Shown in pieces: positions 25,423 through 33,513 of a stretch of 64,000 bases of DNA (its first letter is position 1; each line of letters opens with the position of its first letter). Origin of the DNA: Longispora fulva (GTDB taxonomy: Bacteria > Actinomycetota > Actinomycetes > Mycobacteriales > Micromonosporaceae); contig NZ_JADOUF010000001.1 in NCBI RefSeq assembly GCF_015751905.1, positions 7,502,001 to 7,566,000 of the forward strand. Reading direction: 5' to 3'. The notes beneath the pieces are model-generated. The model was not told the origin of the DNA, did no database searches, and worked only from the letters and a program-made list of their open reading frames with translations. Made by a program: the position numbers and the translations under genes.

Positions 25423-28044
25423 TCAGAGCTGCAGTTCCAGGTGGTAGCAGCTGTTCGTCGCGCGCTCGTCGAGCACCCGGGTCACCTGGGCGGTGACGGA
25501 GGCCACGAACAGCGGCCCGTTGCTGGCGTTGAACACGCCGGCCCCGACGTCCACGACGTTGAGGACGGCCGGGTCGGCGCAGTGCCGCGACACATTGGAC
25601 GGTCCCTGCGCCACGATCTCCGCCTGCATCGCGCCCCGGACCGTGGCGGCGTTGGCGTTGATCTGCGCGAGGGTCATGCCGGCGGTGGCGGCCGTGAACC
25701 GGTTCACGACAGCCCGGCCGGGCGCCTGGTACAGCGCCAACTGGTTGGCCGTGTTCTGCGCGACGGTGCGCGCCGGGTTCACCAGGTTGTTGAACATCGC
25801 CCGCGCCTGGTCGGCCGGGGTCCGCGCCGTGCTGGTGATCGTGGCCGTCGACTGGCCGGCCGACCGGAGTGCGTTCTTGATCGCGGTGATCATCCCGGGG
25901 GCGACCGACGCCTGGTTGGCCTGCGCGCCGAACCCGACCGTCACGTCGGCGATCGCGCCCACCTGGTTCGGGCTGCTCGCCGCGATCAGGTGGGTCGCGC
26001 CGGCCGGCGGGTTCTGCAGCAGGCTGCCGGCGATCCGGACCGGGCCGTGCGCGCCCTGGGCGTCACCGGCCGGGACCGGGTGGCTGAACAGGGCCGTGCC
26101 GATCCGGCTCTCGTAGCCGGCGCCGCTGGCCCAGTACACGTCGATGGTGCCGGCCTGCTCCAGGTCGTGGTCCTTGACCTCGTAGCGCAGGTCGAGGCCG
26201 CCCTGGGTGTTGTTCCAGGCGAGCTTCGGTTCGACCTGGTCCTTGATCTCCTCGACGAAGTCCACGACGACCTGGGAGTCCAGCAGGCCGTCCGCGACGT
26301 TGGCCACCCCGAGGTCGACCTGGATGGTGTCGCCCTTCTTGTCCACCTTCAGCTTCAGTTCGCGCCACGCGGTCGCGCCGCTGCCGTAGTCGAACGCGCC
26401 GAGGCCGAGGCCGTTCATGCTGTTGGTCTCGACAGTGGAGTCGCCGCCCTGCTGGCTGCGGATGGAGACCCGGTAGTAGTCGTTGTACTGGCTGCCGAAG
26501 TACCCACCGGGCACCTCGCTCGTGACGAACCGGAACCGGATCTTCACGGCCACCACGTCCGGGTCGGTCTGGAAGGCCCGCGAGATGGACTGCTCGCCCT
26601 GGCCGGCCGTGCCGAGTGTCAGGTCCTTGTCGGTGACCGGGGCGTTCAGGCCGGCGGGCGGCTGTCCCGTGCCGCCCTGACTGGCCGGGGTCATGAGCGG
26701 GGCCTCGGCGTGCTCGCCGACCGGCGGGGCCGGCGCCACGCCCGCGACGTGCGGGATGCCCTCGACGTGGTCCTTCACCTGCACCGGAGCGCCGCCGGTG
26801 TTCCAACCGGCCGTGCCCTGGCTGAAGTCGTTGTTCTTGACCGGGCTCGGGTCCTTGAAGCCGTGCAGCTCGACCATGAAGAACGGCCTGGACGAGAAGT
26901 CGCCCAGCACGCCGAGCCGGTTGCCGCTCGCCGTGGCCTTCACCAGGATGGTGCGCGCGGGCACACTCGGGATGGTCAGGGTGCCGGTCGTCGTGGTGGC
27001 CTCGGCGTACACCGCCAGGTTGTCCGACAGGCTGACCCGGACGGTCACCAGGTCGGTGATCAGCACGTGGTTCACGTCGTCGACCACCCGGACCGGGACC
27101 GAGGTGTTGCCGGCCCAGATGGTGTCGGTGCGGTAGAGGGGGCGTCCGGTGGTGTCGTACCCCTTGAAGGAGATCACGTTCTTGCCGGACACCAGCCGGT
27201 TCGTGCCCGCGGAGATCTTGCCGGCCGTGACGGTGGTCGGCACCGGGTTGCCGTTGATCGTGAAGGAGCCGCCGCCCTGGTCGGCGTCGAACGCCGCCCC
27301 GGTCAGCGTGTACGCCACCTCGGCGGACGTCGCGTTGAACCCGGTGGCCGACAGTCCGGCGAGCTGGAGCGCGCCGTCGGGCAGCACCTGGTCGAGCGGG
27401 TTGTCGCTCGCGAGCCGCAGGCTGGTGGCCGCGCCGAGGTTGCGGTTCGCCCGTGCGGTGTCGTCGGCGTCGATGACGCCGTCGCGGTCGGTGTCCGCCC
27501 AGGCCGAGTAGCCCGGGTCGCCGGTGTGCTTGCCCTGCAGGCCGCCGATCACGGCCAGGTCAGCGGCGTCGACCACGAAGTCGGCGTTGGCGTCGCCGAC
27601 GAGCACCTTGACCAGCTCGTACCCGCCGGTGGTGGCGAAGTTGCCCTTGATCTGGATCTCGTAGGTGGTGCCGGTGCACAGCGTCGCCAGGCCGTAGTCG
27701 GAGGCCTCGCCGGGGGAGTTGATGGTGTGCGCGCCGAGGATGTCGGCGGTCTCCGTGGTCTTGCGGACCCGGATGATGCCCGGGTTGAGGCCGCTGCCCG
27801 GTGCGGCCTCGACCGAGAATCCGACGAGGACGTCGCCGTGCGCGTTCGCGGTGTAGTCGGTGCCGGGCAGGCTGAAGACCAGGCGGTCCTGGGCCTCAGC
27901 CGTGCGCAGCTCGCCAGGGTTGACGGCGAACGCCGGGGTGCCGGTGCGGTCCACGGCGGCGACGGGCGCCGCGGACGCGGCCGTCGGGCCGAGCGGCACG
28001 GCGAGAGCTAGGGGGACGAGAACGGCCAGATAACGCTTCTTCAC
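25423..28044 (-). CDS. Large secreted protein with dockerin-like module and M15-like C-terminus
   Basis: An 873-residue exported protein. Residues 1-25 form a signal peptide (KKRYLAVLVPLALAV, cut near ASA-AP). Residues about 40-146 look like a cohesin-type beta sandwich. Residues 150-206 have two calcium loops, GDANADFVVDAADLAVI and ADTDRDGVIDADD, as in type I dockerins. A middle beta-rich region (about 210-700) follows. The last 138 residues (RTPADQARAM, SRHCADPAVLNVVDV, CYHLEL) resemble zinc peptidases of the M15 peptidoglycan-hydrolase group, with candidate ligands His821, Asp824 or Asp832, and His868. GTG 28044 is fixed by AGGAGG just upstream. Substrate is unknown. Confidence 0.8.
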   Translation of the reverse strand: MKKRYLAVLVPLALAVPLGPTAASAAPVAAVDRTGTPAFAVNPGELRTAEAQDRLVFSLPGTDYTANAHGDVLVGFSVEAAPGSGLNPGIIRVRKTTETADILGAHTINSPGEASDYGLATLCTGTTYEIQIKGNFATTGGYELVKVLVGDANADFVVDAADLAVIGGLQGKHTGDPGYSAWADTDRDGVIDADDTARANRNLGAATSLRLASDNPLDQVLPDGALQLAGLSATGFNATSAEVAYTLTGAAFDADQGGGSFTINGNPVPTTVTAGKISAGTNRLVSGKNVISFKGYDTTGRPLYRTDTIWAGNTSVPVRVVDDVNHVLITDLVTVRVSLSDNLAVYAEATTTTGTLTIPSVPARTILVKATASGNRLGVLGDFSSRPFFMVELHGFKDPSPVKNNDFSQGTAGWNTGGAPVQVKDHVEGIPHVAGVAPAPPVGEHAEAPLMTPASQGGTGQPPAGLNAPVTDKDLTLGTAGQGEQSISRAFQTDPDVVAVKIRFRFVTSEVPGGYFGSQYNDYYRVSIRSQQGGDSTVETNSMNGLGLGAFDYGSGATAWRELKLKVDKKGDTIQVDLGVANVADGLLDSQVVVDFVEEIKDQVEPKLAWNNTQGGLDLRYEVKDHDLEQAGTIDVYWASGAGYESRIGTALFSHPVPAGDAQGAHGPVRIAGSLLQNPPAGATHLIAASSPNQVGAIADVTVGFGAQANQASVAPGMITAIKNALRSAGQSTATITSTARTPADQARAMFNNLVNPARTVAQNTANQLALYQAPGRAVVNRFTAATAGMTLAQINANAATVRGAMQAEIVAQGPSNVSRHCADPAVLNVVDVGAGVFNASNGPLFVASVTAQVTRVLDERATNSCYHLELQL

Positions 28045-28052
28045 GTTTCCTC

Positions 28053-28077
28053 CTGACACAACGGGAAGGTGTGTCAG
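28053..28077 (-). promoter_or_regulatory. Stem-loop abutting the ribosome binding site of the secreted protein gene
   Basis: A perfect 8-bp inverted repeat (28053-28060 with 28070-28077), 9-base spacer. In the mRNA the 3' arm ends in CAG directly joined to GAGG of the ribosome binding site. It may be an operator or an RNA element controlling translation or stability. Confidence 0.45.
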
Positions 28078-28149: not shown

Positions 28150-29055
28150 CTACTCTCGACTGTCCACCTGCCGCGAGGCGTGCCCGGGCTCGGCGAAGGA
28201 CCACTCCAGCCGGTACCTGGCGTGCAGCGGCGGGGCGTTCGTCTCCCAGCTGTACTCCACCATCCCGTCCTCCGCGACCTGGTGGATCGGGCTCAGCTCG
28301 CCCCGGTCCGAGCTGGTCATCAGGATCTCCACACCCCACACCTCGGGGATCAGCTCCGCCGGGAACCGCATCCGCACCGACAACCGGTCCGTGGGGTGCC
28401 GGATCGCGCGCTGGAACCAGGATCCCCAGGTCTCCCGCTCGACGCTGTAGGAGTACTCGATCCAGGTCCGCTCGCCCGGATACAGCGGGAACCGGCCGAG
28501 GGCGTTCTCGAACAGCAGCCACACCTCCTTCAGGGTCGGCAGGTCCAGGTTCGGCACGCACTCCATCGTCAGGCCGCGACACGTGGCGCGCAGGTCCAGC
28601 TCCGGCCAGGTCAGGGGGGTCGTCGCCTCCTGGTCGGCCGCGATCTTGATGAAGTAGCGCGCGACCGGGTCGGCCTGGCCGTTGAAGAGCTGGCGGCGGA
28701 TCGTCACCCAGTACCGCTCGCCGTCGTAGCGCATCAGGGCTTCCTCGTGCTCCACCGTGAGGTCGGTGGCGGTGCCCCGCTCGACCGGCGGCGGGGCCGG
28801 GGTCGCGCGGCGGGGACGGGAGTCGTCGTAGAGCCGCCAGAGGCCGAGGAGCTCGCCCTCGGCGCGTAACACGTCGTCGGCGCGGCGGGCGAAGTCCTCC
28901 GTGGGTCGGTGCCGGCCACTCTCGATGTGGCTCACATAGGACGGGTCGAACAACATCAGGGCGCCGAGCTGCTTTTTGGACAGACCTCTGCGCTCCCGCC
29001 AGGCTGTTAACTCCCGACGGAAGGTACCCATAGCCTCCTGGGCCGACAACTCCAC
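28150..29055 (-). CDS. XRE-family transcriptional regulator with C-terminal sensing domain
   Basis: A 301-residue protein. Residues about 10-70 are a helix-turn-helix of the XRE type (RRGLSKKQLGALMLFDPSYV, HIESGRHRPTEDFARRADDVL). Residues about 95-290 are a separate domain with YWVTIRRQLFNGQADPVARY and EVWLLFENALGRFPLYPGE, which I know from actinomycete HTH proteins but cannot name. GTG 29055 has GGAG four bases upstream. It is the last gene in line after the FtsK cassette (43-base gap) and precedes the secreted protein gene in the same direction, so it may regulate either. Confidence 0.83.
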   Translation of the reverse strand: MELSAQEAMGTFRRELTAWRERRGLSKKQLGALMLFDPSYVSHIESGRHRPTEDFARRADDVLRAEGELLGLWRLYDDSRPRRATPAPPPVERGTATDLTVEHEEALMRYDGERYWVTIRRQLFNGQADPVARYFIKIAADQEATTPLTWPELDLRATCRGLTMECVPNLDLPTLKEVWLLFENALGRFPLYPGERTWIEYSYSVERETWGSWFQRAIRHPTDRLSVRMRFPAELIPEVWGVEILMTSSDRGELSPIHQVAEDGMVEYSWETNAPPLHARYRLEWSFAEPGHASRQVDSRE

Positions 29056-29098
29056 ATACTCCAGCTTGTCTGGCGGGCCGAGATCTGGCTACCCCGCT

Positions 29099-29761
29099 TC
29101 AGCGGATGAGAAAAGTCAGCGAACAACTCACCACCAGACCGCCGAGGACCGTGAGGGCCACGGTGCCGACCCCCGTCCGCTGACCGCGGAACCGTGCCAT
29201 TCCCCAGACCACCAGCGGAATCCCGGCGAAGGGTGACAGGAACACCGCGAGCTGGGCGAGCAGGTTCGACAGCAGGGTCTCCTCGTCCCCGAACCCCAGC
29301 ACCAGTCGGGCGAGTCCGAAAATTGACGCAGCAACAATTGCTCCAATAAGGACCGCTACAATCCCGCTGTACTTGATGGGATCGGGCGACCACTCACCCC
29401 GCCGGGCGCGGGCCATCAGGTCCTTGGCCGTCGACAGCAGCTCCTCCGGGTCGGTGCCGGCCGGCGCCACGAGCACGTCTGGCATGTCGCCCATCCGCTT
29501 CGCCATCCGCCGGCCCACGTACGACCGGACGTCGCGCCACACCCGCTCCGCCGTGTTGTCCGCCCGCTCGACGTCCTCCCGCGCGCGGGCCAGGTCCTCC
29601 TGCCGGGCGAGGACGGCCGCACGGGCCGCCTCCAGCCGCTCCTCGATCCGCCGGGCCGCAGCGTCGTGCGCCTGGGCCGCCTGGCGCGCCTCGGCGTTCG
29701 CCTGCTCCAGGGCACCGGCGACCTGGCCCACCAGCGCGCGGTACTCCGCCACCGAAGACAT
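29099..29761 (-). CDS. Coiled-coil membrane protein of the FtsK cassette
   Basis: A 220-residue protein. Residues 5-75 form a strongly predicted coiled coil (ALEQANAEARQAAQAHDAAA onward), residues 80-130 a polar linker, and residues about 133-218 three membrane helices. The topology puts the coiled coil on the cytoplasmic side. ATG 29761 overlaps the ATPase stop by one base (TGATG). It may be the membrane anchor or channel for the ATPase. No named family was recognised. Confidence 0.75.
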   Translation of the reverse strand: MSSVAEYRALVGQVAGALEQANAEARQAAQAHDAAARRIEERLEAARAAVLARQEDLARAREDVERADNTAERVWRDVRSYVGRRMAKRMGDMPDVLVAPAGTDPEELLSTAKDLMARARRGEWSPDPIKYSGIVAVLIGAIVAASIFGLARLVLGFGDEETLLSNLLAQLAVFLSPFAGIPLVVWGMARFRGQRTGVGTVALTVLGGLVVSCSLTFLIR

Positions 29762-32373
29762 CAGTGCACCTCGTACGGGATCATGATCTCGGGCACCCGG
29801 TGGTGCGCCCGGTCGAAGAACAGCGCCCGGTTCTCGCGCGGATACCAGGCTGGGCCGCCCTGGCCCGGGTACAGCGACGCCAACTCGTTGCCGTGCACGT
29901 CGAGCGCCACCCAGGCCCCGACGACGTCCAGCTTCGCGGCCGTCCCGCCCAGGTCGTCCTTCAGCCGGGACACCGAACGCCACCAGCCGAGCACATGGGT
30001 ACGCCGCTCCGGGCCGGACTGCATCACCCGGCGGAGGTTGACGTGGCCCTGGCCGGCGAGGCGGGAGGCGGCGGCGTCCACCGCGTACACGATGAGGTAG
30101 TGCGGGTCGCCGGAGTCGTCGGCCGCCAGCTCCCGCAGCACCTCGACCACGTCGTCGCGCAGGGCCGCGCCGGTGTGCCCGGCGCTCCACAGGTGCCCGA
30201 TGACGGTGGACGCGGCGTCCACGGCGTCCGGCTCCAGACAGACCACGGTGAACCGGGCCGTGCCCGGGGCGTGCTGGCGGGCCAGGGACAACACGGCCGC
30301 GCCCAGCACGGAGCACGCCTCACCGACCCGGGTGCCCAGCACGGCCAGGTTGCGACCAGGGGTCCGCCCCAGGCGCACGTGCGCCGGCCTGGCCTGCACG
30401 TCGATCGTCTGGCCCACCCAGGCGACCGGATCGCGGCCGCCGTCCGGGGTGTGCCGTGGCAGCGGCGGCACGTGGCTGCCGTCGAACAGGATCGGCTCCG
30501 GCGCGTCCGGCGATCGCATGCCCCACAGCCGCCGCTGCAGGTCCTCCCAGACCTGCCGGCTGCCCGCGTCGGGCACCCGGACCACCTTGTTGGCCGGCAG
30601 CACGCCCGAATCCGGGTTCACCACGGCGTGGTAGCGCGGGATCACGTCGGAGACCACGTTGTTCTCCGCCATCATCCGCCGCGCCTTCGGCAGCGCGATC
30701 CGCAGCGTGAACTGCGAGACCAGGGCCGAGCGGCCCCACAGCGCCTCGATGCCACCGATGTCCTGGCTGGCGAGCACCAGGTGGATGCCCTGCGACCTGC
30801 CGCGCCGGGCCAGGTCCTCCATCAGGTCCGTCGCCTCGGCCGACACCGGGTCGCGCATCGTCGTCAGCAGCACCTGGAACTCGTCGATCACGGCCACGAT
30901 CCGGGGCCACCGGCCGCCCGGATCCTCGGTGCGCAGCTCCTCCAGCTTCGTCGCCTCGTGCAGCTTGGCCGCCTCGGCCCGCCGGCGCAGCTCCCCGGCG
31001 AGGAACCGCAGCAGGGCCAGCCCGAACTCCCGGTCGGAGTTGACGTTCACCCCGACCAGGCGGACGTGCGGCAGCCAGCTCTCGTCCCGCCGGCCCCGGG
31101 CGAAGCGCGCGAAGGACACGCCCTCCTTGAAGTCGAGCAGGTACAGCTCCAGCTCGTCCGGGGAGTAGCGGCTGCACAGGGCGCCCAGCCACGCGTACAG
31201 CAGGTTCGTCTTGCCCGAGCCCGACGGGCCGCCGATCAGCGCGTGCGGCGGGGCGTCGCCCAGCGCCAGGTCCACCAGCCGGCCGTCGGCAGCCTCGCCG
31301 ATCGGGGCGACCAGGCCGGCGGCCGAGGACTCCGTCCACAGCTTCTCCGGCAACAGATCCGCGAACACGCCCGGAGCCGGGCCGGCCGCGACGATCTCGG
31401 CGATCCCGCGACAGGTCCGGGTGATCAGCTCGGCCGGCGGCGCGGGGTCCAGCGAGATCCGCATCGGGCCGGTGACGCTCGTGGTCCGGTTGTCCAGGTC
31501 CACCGTCTCGGCCGGCGTCGTGGGCACCCCCACAGTGATCAGGTGCACGCCGCACGCCGCGCCGGTACGGGCGATCCGGTCCAGCTGGGCCCGCTGCCGG
31601 TCGGACAGGTCGTCGACCGAGTCCCCGATCGACCCGTCGCCGAGCAGCACCGCCACCCGCCACGGCTCCGGCCGCCGGCCGGTGGTCGCGGCCAGCTCCC
31701 GCAGCGACGTGTACTCGCCGGCCAGCACCGTCTCGTGGATCCGGCGGATCTCCTCGACCAGCTCGTCCAGCAGGCCGGTCAGCGCGCCCGGGCCGTAGAA
31801 GCTGGCCAGGCCCGCCGGGCTGAGCGCGGCGAAACCGGCCAGCGAGCCGCCGAGCTGCTCCGGGTCGTACACGCTCAGGCGCAGGCCGCCCGGGGCCGTG
31901 CCGCCCAGCGCCCGCAGCAGCAGCGTCGCCACCACGCCCACAGCTTTCGTGGGGTCGCCCTCGATGGCCAGGTGCGCGTGGTCGAGCAGGGGGAGGAGGG
32001 CGGGGATGTCGGGGGAGACCGCGCCGATCCGGTACAGCGCCGGGGCCGTGCCCCGCTCCGGCCGGCTCGGCGTCCACCCGTCCCAGGCGGCGCTCGCCGC
32101 GCCCGGGGCCGCCGTGGTCACCAGGGCGCGGATCGTGGCCGTGCGCGCGGCCAGGGTGGTCCCGGCCGCGTCCGTGCTCACCGCGCGGGCCGCCGCCAAC
32201 CCCACGGCCAACTCGTCGCGCAGCCGCAGCACGTCGTCCTCGGTGTTGCGCAGCCGCAGCTCGCTGTCCGCCAGCGCCTCGGCGGCCCCGGCGGCCGCGG
32301 CCCGCGCGGCACCCCTGGCCTGACCGAGCGCGGATGCGACCTCGGTGGCCACCGCCGTCCGTGGACTGCGCAT
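29761..32373 (-). CDS. FtsK/SpoIIIE-type ATPase with three RecA-like modules
   Basis: An 870-residue protein, mainly soluble. Residues 1-65 are helical. Residues about 105-290 look like a degenerate first RecA-like module with no Walker A. Residues about 350-560 are the active FtsK/SpoIIIE module: Walker A GGPSGSGKTN (381-390), LYLLDFKEGVSF, Walker B VAVIDEFQVLL, and LARRGRSQGIHLVLASQ. Residues about 660-860 form a third module whose P-loop position reads LGTRVGEACS, so it is inactive. Three modules in one chain recall EccC of type VII secretion. No N-terminal membrane helices are seen. Role: likely hexameric translocase of DNA or protein; which one is unknown. Confidence 0.85.
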   Translation of the reverse strand: MRSPRTAVATEVASALGQARGAARAAAAGAAEALADSELRLRNTEDDVLRLRDELAVGLAAARAVSTDAAGTTLAARTATIRALVTTAAPGAASAAWDGWTPSRPERGTAPALYRIGAVSPDIPALLPLLDHAHLAIEGDPTKAVGVVATLLLRALGGTAPGGLRLSVYDPEQLGGSLAGFAALSPAGLASFYGPGALTGLLDELVEEIRRIHETVLAGEYTSLRELAATTGRRPEPWRVAVLLGDGSIGDSVDDLSDRQRAQLDRIARTGAACGVHLITVGVPTTPAETVDLDNRTTSVTGPMRISLDPAPPAELITRTCRGIAEIVAAGPAPGVFADLLPEKLWTESSAAGLVAPIGEAADGRLVDLALGDAPPHALIGGPSGSGKTNLLYAWLGALCSRYSPDELELYLLDFKEGVSFARFARGRRDESWLPHVRLVGVNVNSDREFGLALLRFLAGELRRRAEAAKLHEATKLEELRTEDPGGRWPRIVAVIDEFQVLLTTMRDPVSAEATDLMEDLARRGRSQGIHLVLASQDIGGIEALWGRSALVSQFTLRIALPKARRMMAENNVVSDVIPRYHAVVNPDSGVLPANKVVRVPDAGSRQVWEDLQRRLWGMRSPDAPEPILFDGSHVPPLPRHTPDGGRDPVAWVGQTIDVQARPAHVRLGRTPGRNLAVLGTRVGEACSVLGAAVLSLARQHAPGTARFTVVCLEPDAVDAASTVIGHLWSAGHTGAALRDDVVEVLRELAADDSGDPHYLIVYAVDAAASRLAGQGHVNLRRVMQSGPERRTHVLGWWRSVSRLKDDLGGTAAKLDVVGAWVALDVHGNELASLYPGQGGPAWYPRENRALFFDRAHHRVPEIMIPYEVH

Positions 32374-32376
32374 CGT

Positions 32377-33228
32377 CTACTTTTCCTCGGTCTCGGGCAG
32401 GGACAACGACTCCGGCGGCCGGCGCAGCGTGGCCAGCAGCGCGCCCACCAGCACGGCGCTGCCCGTCGCCGAGTCCACCGGATGCTCGGGCACCCCGTGG
32501 TTGCCGTGCGTCGGCTCGGCGTGGCAGGCCCGGCCCAGCAGGATGTCGGGCAGCTGCGGCGGCAGGCCGGGCAGCGCCTTCACGGTCAGCTTGTCCAGCC
32601 GCTCGCGCAGCTCCGGCACGTCGGCCGGGCCCGGCTTGCGGCCCAGCAGCTCGCCGGACAGCTCCTGGATCAGCGGCGCGCACAAGGCGGTCAGCCGCAG
32701 CCCGATCGCCGGCCCGGCCTTCCACAGCTGCACCCGCAGCGGCTTCGGCTCCTCACGGCGGACCAGGGTGGCGACCCGACGGAGCAGCTCGGCGGCCGGC
32801 GGCGGCTTCTCGTCCTGCTTCTTGTCCACCGGGTCGTCGAGGCCGGTGACCACGTCGACCCGGGTCTCCCACCAGTCGTCCAGCGCCGGGGCCTGCTTCG
32901 GCTCGACCTTCGGCTTCGGCCGGTCCTGCTCCTCGGGCCGGGCGGGCAGTGGTGCGGCGGGAGTCGCGCCGGCGACCCCGAGACCGATCGCCAACTGGTA
33001 CTCCGCGAGAGTCTCCTGCGCGCGCGCCAGCGTCGCGAACGCCTGCTCCAGATGGGTGGTGGCCGCAGCGAGCTGGCTCAGCCCGATCGAGCGCCCCGAC
33101 GTGTGCAGGACGTAGCCGAGCAGGCCGGTGGCGGCCTGCACCCGGTCGGCGGCGAGCCGCAGCTCGGACAGGGGGAGCCCGGCGGACACGCCGTTGAGGG
33201 TGGCGCCGAGTTCCTGGATGACGGACAT
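32377..33228 (-). CDS. Helical protein with Pro-rich linker, FtsK cassette
   Basis: A 283-residue protein. The first ~80 residues are helical (ELGATLNGVSAGLPLSELRL ...), similar in character and length to the small protein encoded just upstream. A Pro/Lys/Glu-rich linker follows (about 95-150), then a helical C-terminal domain (LWKAGPAIGLRLTALCAPLI) with Pro-rich loops and one possible hydrophobic helix near residue 260. ATG 33228; the stop is 3 bases before the ATPase start, so it is cotranslated with it. No family recognised. Confidence 0.72.
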   Translation of the reverse strand: MSVIQELGATLNGVSAGLPLSELRLAADRVQAATGLLGYVLHTSGRSIGLSQLAAATTHLEQAFATLARAQETLAEYQLAIGLGVAGATPAAPLPARPEEQDRPKPKVEPKQAPALDDWWETRVDVVTGLDDPVDKKQDEKPPPAAELLRRVATLVRREEPKPLRVQLWKAGPAIGLRLTALCAPLIQELSGELLGRKPGPADVPELRERLDKLTVKALPGLPPQLPDILLGRACHAEPTHGNHGVPEHPVDSATGSAVLVGALLATLRRPPESLSLPETEEK

Positions 33229-33234
33229 CGCGGG

Positions 33235-33495
33235 CTACAGCGTCGCGACGTACTGCTCGGCCTGCTCGACCGCCGCCGCCGTCGCGGCGAGGCACTCGTC
33301 GAGCTCCAGCGCGGCCTGGGCGAGCGCGGCGTGGCAGGCCAGCACCGCGTCGTGGCCGCTGCCGTCGAGGGCCACGGCCAGGGCGCCCTGCGCCTCGGTG
33401 AGCTTCTCACCGGCCGCGGCCACGACCTCCTGCCCCTCGAGGACATGCTCCATCGCGGTGTTGATCGCGGCCTTGACCTCGGCAACGCTTGCCAA
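33235..33495 (-). CDS. Small all-helical protein, first gene of FtsK cassette
   Basis: An 86-residue acidic protein, predicted as two or three long helices: ASVAEVKAAINTAMEHVLEG, then EKLTEAQGALAVAL and LAQAALELDECLAATAAAVE. Length and helical hairpin character resemble WXG100 proteins, but there is no W-x-G turn. TTG 33495 is the start because AGGAGGTG lies 4 bases upstream and no other start fits. The ribosome binding site is inside a perfect palindrome (33500-33513). Six bases separate it from the next gene. Confidence 0.7.
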   Translation of the reverse strand: MASVAEVKAAINTAMEHVLEGQEVVAAAGEKLTEAQGALAVALDGSGHDAVLACHAALAQAALELDECLAATAAAVEQAEQYVATL

Positions 33496-33499
33496 GCGG

Positions 33500-33513
33500 C
33501 ACCTCCTGAGGTG
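33500..33513. promoter_or_regulatory. Perfect palindrome containing the ribosome binding site
   Basis: CACCTCCTGAGGTG is a 14-base perfect palindrome. On the minus strand it contains GGAGGTG, the ribosome binding site of the first cassette gene. It could be a repressor site or an RNA fold hiding the site. Confidence 0.45.

Follow-up and report, generated by a model that had tools for sequence, protein, structure and literature searches.

A compact four-gene cassette of Longispora fulva built around an EccC-fold ATPase: a candidate protein export machine

The stretch of DNA analysed here (the window, 64,000 nucleotides of Longispora fulva) sits in an 8.68 Mb single-contig genome and carries a cassette of four minus-strand genes, here called A, B, C and D, that are spaced by 6, 3 and −1 bases (Table 1). 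A first-pass annotation, made from the DNA letters alone, had listed these four open reading frames (ORFs) around an FtsK/SpoIIIE-type ATPase, and all of them were found at the coordinates it gave. It had also suggested that the cassette is a minimal machine for secretion, DNA translocation or defence in which small helical proteins serve as substrates or adaptors. Of these options, secretion is the one that gained ground: the cassette probably encodes a small machine for protein export, operating in the manner of a type VII secretion core.

Table 1. Coordinates of the cassette genes, their motifs and the adjoining regulator gene, numbered from the first letter of the window (aa, amino acids).
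Feature	Position	Strand	Description
Gene A	33235..33495	-	86 aa, TTG start; predicted hairpin of two helices with a G-S turn at 45-46; in alignments A1, A7 and A8, with relatives beside C-D
C-terminal Y82-x-x-x-L86 codons of A	33238..33252	-	candidate recognition signal, proposed from conservation
Ribosome-binding site AGGAGGT of A	33501..33507	-	read directly from the sequence
Gene B	32377..33228	-	283 aa; A-like hairpin (~1-80), Pro-rich linker and, at 114-268, a helical C-terminal domain
Gene C	29761..32373	-	870 aa; N-terminal helix (4-88) and three RecA-like modules, Walker motifs in the middle one only
Walker A, middle module of C	31207..31230	-	residues 382-389, GPSGSGKT
Walker B, middle module of C	30880..30897	-	residues 493-498, ending in DE
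Gene D	29099..29761	-	220 aa; coiled coil at the N-terminus (by eye) and three predicted membrane helices; one-base overlap with C
XRE gene	28150-29055		real ORF, outside the conserved unit

A scan for relatives of C gave, among the matches listed, 80 loci (numbered with L below), in 75 of which C is readable; the genes of the fetched loci were predicted with a simple GC-frame script, and some of their starts are misplaced. The order A-B-C is kept in 60 of the 75 readable loci, and a D-type ORF lies behind in 59 of these 60. One more A orthologue occurs at L054, a locus without a readable C, hence the 61 A orthologues considered below. Co-conservation of the genes had been set beforehand as a check on the first-pass annotation, and the conserved gene order, together with the finding of A beyond C in three other families, refutes a chance run of unrelated genes; the fact that the XRE gene is not conserved speaks for such a run, which nevertheless has a negligible probability. 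This XRE regulator, which the first-pass annotation had seen following the cassette, is a real gene but lies outside the unit, because a relative adjoins C in only 1 of the 80 other loci (L009, Longispora), and it was dropped as a cassette partner. The 15 readable loci without A consist of three short contigs and 12 Actinoplanes-type loci. At 11 Actinoplanes-type loci on the nucS side (L016, 8533-9888, and ten similar ones), a membrane protein of ~440 aa precedes C-D where A and B are missing; the one that was scanned has no Pfam match.

The genomic surroundings are partly shared as well. In the window, a gene judged by eye to be nucS-like lies three genes upstream of A, and the cassette is found near such a gene in the Longispora, Actinoplanes-type and Actinocatenispora loci that were read, mostly with a DUF4126-like gene (by eye) in between. 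This shared neighbourhood in several groups makes a mobile island unlikely. The Micromonospora cassette loci occupy a different genomic place from the nucS-like gene.

The protein C matches the Pfam family FtsK_SpoIIIE (E 4.9e-20) and, over residues 339-539, the EccCa profile TIGR03924 (E 1.3e-30, with 106.7 bits, which is under the cut-off of 509.15). Its AlphaFold2 model, with a mean predicted local distance difference test (pLDDT) score of 87.8, consists of a single long N-terminal helix and three RecA-like modules. Structure prediction had been proposed as a check in the first-pass annotation, and the top PDB fold match of the model is 4nh0, the cytoplasmic domain of T. curvata EccC (E 1.2e-32, 935 alignment columns), with 4n1a and EssC as further best matches and FtsK (E 3e-14) and TcpA as the next ones. 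By strict patterns, C contains a single Walker A (residue 382) and a single Walker B (from residue 493, ending in DE), and no Walker motif in modules 1 and 3, which bears out the earlier description of one active and two degenerate RecA modules. Among 119 C proteins, Walker A occurs exactly once in 113 and is absent from six (one of them a truncated call), and the strict Walker B pattern occurs once in 97, twice in 1 and not at all in 21. No membrane segment was found in C, the peak 19-residue hydropathy being 1.43. Because of the PDB matches, the Walker counts and the hydropathy, C is predicted to be a motor of the EccC/EssC fold with one intact ATPase centre and no anchor of its own.

Another explanation considered is a pump for DNA, acting in chromosome segregation or conjugation. 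C carries the FtsK_SpoIIIE domain, FtsK and TcpA come next among its fold matches, its paralogue at L090 adjoins a VirB4-like ATPase and an M23 peptidase, and the nucS-like gene (by eye) lies three genes upstream of A. However, the EccC fold match is far better than that of FtsK (1.2e-32 vs. 3e-14), no FtsK gamma domain was found in C by a Pfam scan (E up to 1), the same kind of scan revealed no relaxase in the cassette, and no conjugation gene was recognised in the cassette or in the three neighbouring genes scanned. In addition, the partners of C are hairpins with toxin-borne relatives. The DNA-translocation branch of the first-pass annotation thus finds little support, and a DNA pump is very improbable.

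The small protein A starts with TTG behind AGGAGGT, as do its orthologues, and is 86-88 aa long in all 61 of them, with a GS or GT turn; a hairpin of two helices is predicted from the sequence. The C-terminus of A is invariant: Yxxx[LIV]-COOH is present in 61 of 61 orthologues, and the A proteins of other families end in Y-x-x-x-L in 10 of 10 cases. In the broader A7 set, [YFW]xxx[LIVAMF]-COOH is found in 24 of 24 proteins and Yxxx[LIV] in 19 of 24. The first-pass annotation had reported that no WXG motif exists, and WxG is indeed found in none of the 61 A orthologues and none of the 24 A7 proteins; 7 of the 8 proteins of control set A6 contain it. Likewise, the export motif YxxxD/E was found in 0 of 20 A orthologues and 0 of 24 A7 proteins, vs. 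3 of 8 controls. A type VII C-terminal pattern, HxxxD/ExxhxxxH, is given in PMC3935865; a loose version of it is matched by 7 of 20 A orthologues including A of the window, 5 of 24 A7 proteins and 4 of 8 controls. The Pfam family WXG100 is matched at E up to 1 by 17 of 20 A orthologues (best 5e-5, A of the window not among them) and at E up to 0.1 by 6 of the 24 A7 proteins; weak matches of unrelated helical families occur as well.

B appears, from sequence comparison, to be an A-like hairpin plus an extra domain. Its N-terminus was compared with A by hhalign, which gave a probability of 92% (E 7e-7) for alignment A2 vs. A7 and of 76% (E 2.3e-5) for the A orthologues alone, each E-value counting a single comparison. 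In the AlphaFold2 model of B (mean pLDDT 79.5), the remainder beyond the hairpin is a helical domain, and the model has no PDB match at E 0.001. The three membrane helices that the first-pass annotation had assigned to D correspond to three hydrophobic windows (128-146, 163-181 and 196-214), each barely above the threshold. Counterparts of D in other loci were assigned by position: a D-type ORF stands behind C in 74 of the 75 readable loci, and in all 74 this counterpart carries at least one hydrophobic window. A sequence relative of D was recovered by tblastn in 38 of the 80 loci. Among 43 own-family loci, mostly of paralogues, 31 have a membrane gene immediately behind C under a strict rule.

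The pairing of A with C was followed through 41 genomes of the own family, 37 of which contain C and 32 of which contain A. Of 45 strong A matches, 41 have a C no more than 2.5 kb away, and an A is found within 6.5 kb of 46 of the 89 C genes, a count from which three second fragments of the same C had been removed by hand; these counts lean to pairing because the A7 profile was seeded with hairpins beside C. In the own genome, which holds three further C paralogues besides C of the window, the A7 profile detects three proteins, each adjoining a C paralogue, and all three are themselves A7 members. A profile built from A orthologues only was run on 4428 ORFs of the 43 own-family loci, all of them centred on C, and returned 13 matches at E 2e-4 or better, 12 of which lie within 1 kb of C. 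Four weaker matches (E 4e-4 to 0.04) are found at distances of up to 4.9 kb, and this profile missed the A of L117.

C itself reaches beyond one family. A phylum scan with 3 positive genomes out of 296 at 1e-70, one already of another family, had suggested that C is restricted to a single family. This was dropped after a scan of the class, where 38 of 246 genomes gave C at 1e-60 and 35 of the 38 belong to other families; three candidates were scored per genome in both scans. Twelve other-family loci from three families were then picked for C alone, from 12 of the 35 other-family genomes and with the strongest matches favoured. The A-orthologue-only profile gave 10 matches among their 1291 ORFs (E 1e-11 to 0.018) and none else at E up to 1, and each match is an 85-87 aa protein immediately beyond C. 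The weakest two, at L231 and L232 (0.006 and 0.018), rest on the A7 profile (2e-17). Since A lies beyond C in 10 of the 12 other-family loci, the conserved core is C–D–A, with B as an extra gene in loci of the window's type. In one other family, a 201-aa helical protein follows C-D in place of A (L236, 11713-12318; L238, 11794-12399); that of L236 has a weak WXG100 match (E 0.0015, below the cut-off).

Hairpins of the A type also occur away from C, where they head toxins. Ten A-type and five DUF6244-type fusions were listed, of which seven and two, respectively, were scanned; L163, added to these, gave no match. Five of the seven scanned A-type fusions carry either CdiA_C (L173 and L176, E 3.4e-16 and 6.6e-16) or DddA-like domains (L177, L179 and L193, E 7.9e-17, 7e-19 and 2.8e-12), the L179 fusion having a degenerate-looking end. 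An Imm1 gene comes after the L177 and L193 fusions (E 5.3e-12 and 2.5e-17). LXG toxins of the type VIIb secretion system (T7SSb) combine a helical head with a variable toxin and an immunity gene. The A-family heads are alike in being helical and fused to variable toxins with immunity genes; unlike LXG toxins, their heads are ~85 aa long, and the five hairpin toxins have no LXG or WXG100 match (Pfam, E 0.05). In these relatives of A, as distinct from A of the window, one kind of N-terminal domain is fused to different toxins with immunity genes, as in the trafficking domains of polymorphic toxins.

A second helical group, DUF6244 (PF19757), resembles the A family in consisting of helical proteins that stand beside or are fused to WHH and DddA-like toxins. 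It differs in its C-terminus, and hhalign connects it to A only weakly (51%, E 1.5e-4, and 17% against the A orthologues alone). DUF6244 proteins are present in 9 of the 41 family genomes and adjoin WHH, DddA-like, Imm1 and SUKH genes, and in L208 and L211 (both of the two scanned, out of five listed) DUF6244 is fused to a DddA-like domain. Arrays of DUF6244 with WHH, SUKH or Imm1 stand back-to-back with a C-D pair at L089 (11294-17157) and L113 (739-7662), and the two genomes, the own one and one more of the same genus, hold different array sets. DUF6244 as a general partner of C was dropped, as it is found beside C only in these two, and in a tree of C the DUF6244-bearing genomes did not fit a single clade. 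No paper on DUF6244 was found in the open-licence literature, which is weak evidence of absence.

The toxins could also be read without any export, as parts of an intracellular conflict complex in which a hairpin adaptor brings effectors to a membrane-tethered ATPase and the toxins act in the producer, in abortive infection or signalling. By eye, A, B, C and D are without a Sec signal, adaptor domains are known in bacterial apoptosis and immunity systems (PMC8195603), and one paralogue operon contains Hsp70, DnaJ/TPR and GrpE. However, Imm1 and SUKH genes beside toxins typify exported polymorphic toxins, the fold of C is that of a secretion motor, and PADLOC detects no defence system. C matches SspH, mad8, HerA and mad3 in PADLOC in its central ATPase part only, D has coiled-coil-like matches only (best 3.4e-4), and A and B have none. 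A phage-defence function was lowered because the matches are confined to the generic ATPase part of C, so that the defence branch of the first-pass annotation receives nothing from PADLOC. The conflict complex is unlikely, although it is the least improbable of the alternatives considered.

Type VII secretion (ESX/T7SSa, T7SSb and subtypes c-j), as described in the part of PMC11217815 available to us, shares with the cassette a triple-ATPase motor of the EccC/EssC fold encoded with a small helical protein, and helix-headed polymorphic toxins. Unlike the type VII ATPase, which is bound to the membrane by its own segment, C is not, and the membrane part is the separate protein D. Further differences are that the cassette motor has only one intact ATPase centre and that its hairpin, without WxG and YxxxD/E, has its own Y-x-x-x-[LIV]-COOH instead. 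EccB, EccD, EccE and MycP were not recognised in the cassette or in its neighbours (three scanned, further ones by eye), nor TsxB in the cassette, in line with the absence of EccB/D/E noted in the first-pass annotation. Ordinary ESX membership was lowered for want of an own membrane segment, WxG, YxxxD/E and EccB/D/E, and the cassette falls outside type VII in the strict sense.

C-D-A might still be an accessory of an ordinary system, handing hairpin substrates to the EccBCDE channel of the same cell. The same genome encodes long EccC-like ATPases as well as WXG100 proteins, and small partner proteins assist a T7SSb nuclease toxin (PMC10653861). However, C has its own triple-ATPase fold and membrane partner D and would then be a second motor, and the listed WXG100 and long-ATPase places are all more than 240 kb from the window's cassette. 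Such an accessory role is distinctly unlikely, less so than a DNA pump.

The nearest published precedent found is footnote 6 to Table 1 of Zhang et al. 2012 (PMC3482391), which concerns solo WXG proteins that accompany a YueA-like ATPase with three HerA/FtsK domains, of which only the middle one is active; the authors regard these systems as apparently mobile type VII versions in other phyla. C is similar in having three modules with Walker motifs in the middle one only, and in its solo small helical protein. However, A is without WxG, the cassette is chromosomal and partly syntenic, the two are likened by description only, and the footnote mentions neither actinobacteria nor counterparts of D and B. 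Some FtsK/SpoIIIE genes of M. lupini are named eccC in PMC4182475, the available part of which does not describe such a cassette, and neither Micromonospora nor Streptomyces occurs in the main text of PMC11217815. The first-pass annotation had asked whether the set is an already named locus; among the papers listed, none describes a cassette of this make-up in its title or in the opening of its abstract, and no paper on an FtsK/SpoIIIE operon in Micromonospora was found, in the open-licence literature searched, both being weak evidence of absence.

If the cassette is an export machine, C would be its cytosolic motor, burning ATP in the middle RecA module only, and the degenerate modules may be structural or recognition domains. 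D would anchor C to the membrane, substituting for the built-in membrane segment of EccC, and may be part of the conduit. A would be an obligatory hairpin substrate or co-substrate whose invariant C-terminal Y-x-x-x-[LIV] serves as the tag read by C, and B a bigger partner with a hairpin head, serving as cargo or as adaptor. The gene order, the co-conservation, the modelled fold of the motor with its single intact centre, the kinship of the A and B hairpins and the hairpin-toxin fusions are results of the analysis; we infer that anything is exported, what D does, that the C-terminus is a tag, and that toxins leave by the C motor rather than by an ordinary ESX system. At least some such machines probably export antibacterial toxins, because elsewhere hairpins related to A form fusions with toxins that attack nucleic acids and come with immunity genes.

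Several observations weigh against this interpretation. In the 41 family genomes, 43 of the 89 C genes are without an A within 6.5 kb, and A is absent from two of the 12 other-family loci, whose type was under-sampled (two of 14 matches taken). The E-values that link A and B are single-comparison values, as given above, and the kinship of A to eight WXG100 proteins of the own genome is weak (4.4% and 6.6% by hhalign). The hairpin-toxin fusions are located away from C, and no toxin was recognised alongside the window's own cassette. The fusion hairpins match A7 at 4.8e-8 to 4.3e-12 in stretches that were themselves chosen by their A7 match, Ala-rich helices are prone to weak matches, and no immunity family of Pfam is matched by the genes adjoining the two CdiA_C fusions (L173 and L176). 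In addition, the own genome contains seven other long reading frames for ATPases (1294-1505 aa), which resemble canonical EccC, and seven WXG100 stretches above the Pfam cut-off. Given these EccC-like ATPases and WXG100 proteins, departure of the hairpin toxins by an ordinary ESX route is an alternative, and the canonical EccC-like systems could be their exporters. Finally, five full-length C paralogues (L130, L132, L135, L138 and L149) lack both Walker motifs by strict patterns; they are possibly pseudo-ATPases or decaying copies. The same five are also without a neighbouring A.

A more tentative proposal, which we consider somewhat less likely to hold than to fail, is that these cassettes form a separate actinobacterial secretion class, characterised by a split motor (soluble C and membrane-bound D), a new hairpin family tagged with Y-x-x-x-[LIV], repeated equipment with hairpin-headed toxins for use against competing bacteria, and paralogous machines with hairpins of their own. 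Type VII secretion is understood via large membrane complexes. If the export reading is true, a version with three or four genes and a soluble motor would show which type VII parts are essential, and such a small cassette is a candidate for reconstitution. It could explain toxin delivery by Micromonospora-type soil actinobacteria, where the heads match no Pfam export domain in the scans, and it offers a testable function for a hairpin family without a Pfam assignment in those scans and for DUF6244.

Some paralogous C loci have elaborate surroundings. At L091 (5100-11644; own genome C1:125000-144000), an operon encodes Hsp70, DnaJ/TPR, GrpE, C, D and A in turn, and the chaperone trio appears to be coupled to the C motor. 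In another family, a similar A stands behind C and D at L231 and L232, with a DnaJ-like gene (by eye) upstream at L232. At L090 (711-7770), a VirB4-like ATPase, a multi-membrane protein and an M23 peptidase are encoded upstream of C-D-A, forming a type IV-like operon, and sizes and order resembling this upstream operon were seen by eye at several other C loci.

Other genes recur beside the hairpins or the cassette. A protein of 199-212 aa with a VGxxxGP-like start is found beside A-type hairpins at L117, L124, L161, L162, L171 and L178; the three that were scanned have no Pfam match. In the window, the XRE gene adjoins an 878-aa protein (25423-28059) with a weak dockerin match (20.5 bits, under the 22.9 cut-off). 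XRE-like regulators lie near several A-type hairpins, among them the window's XRE gene (28150-29055) and the regulators at L162 and L163, and at the latter two there is also a small gene that we take, by eye, to be DUF397-like.

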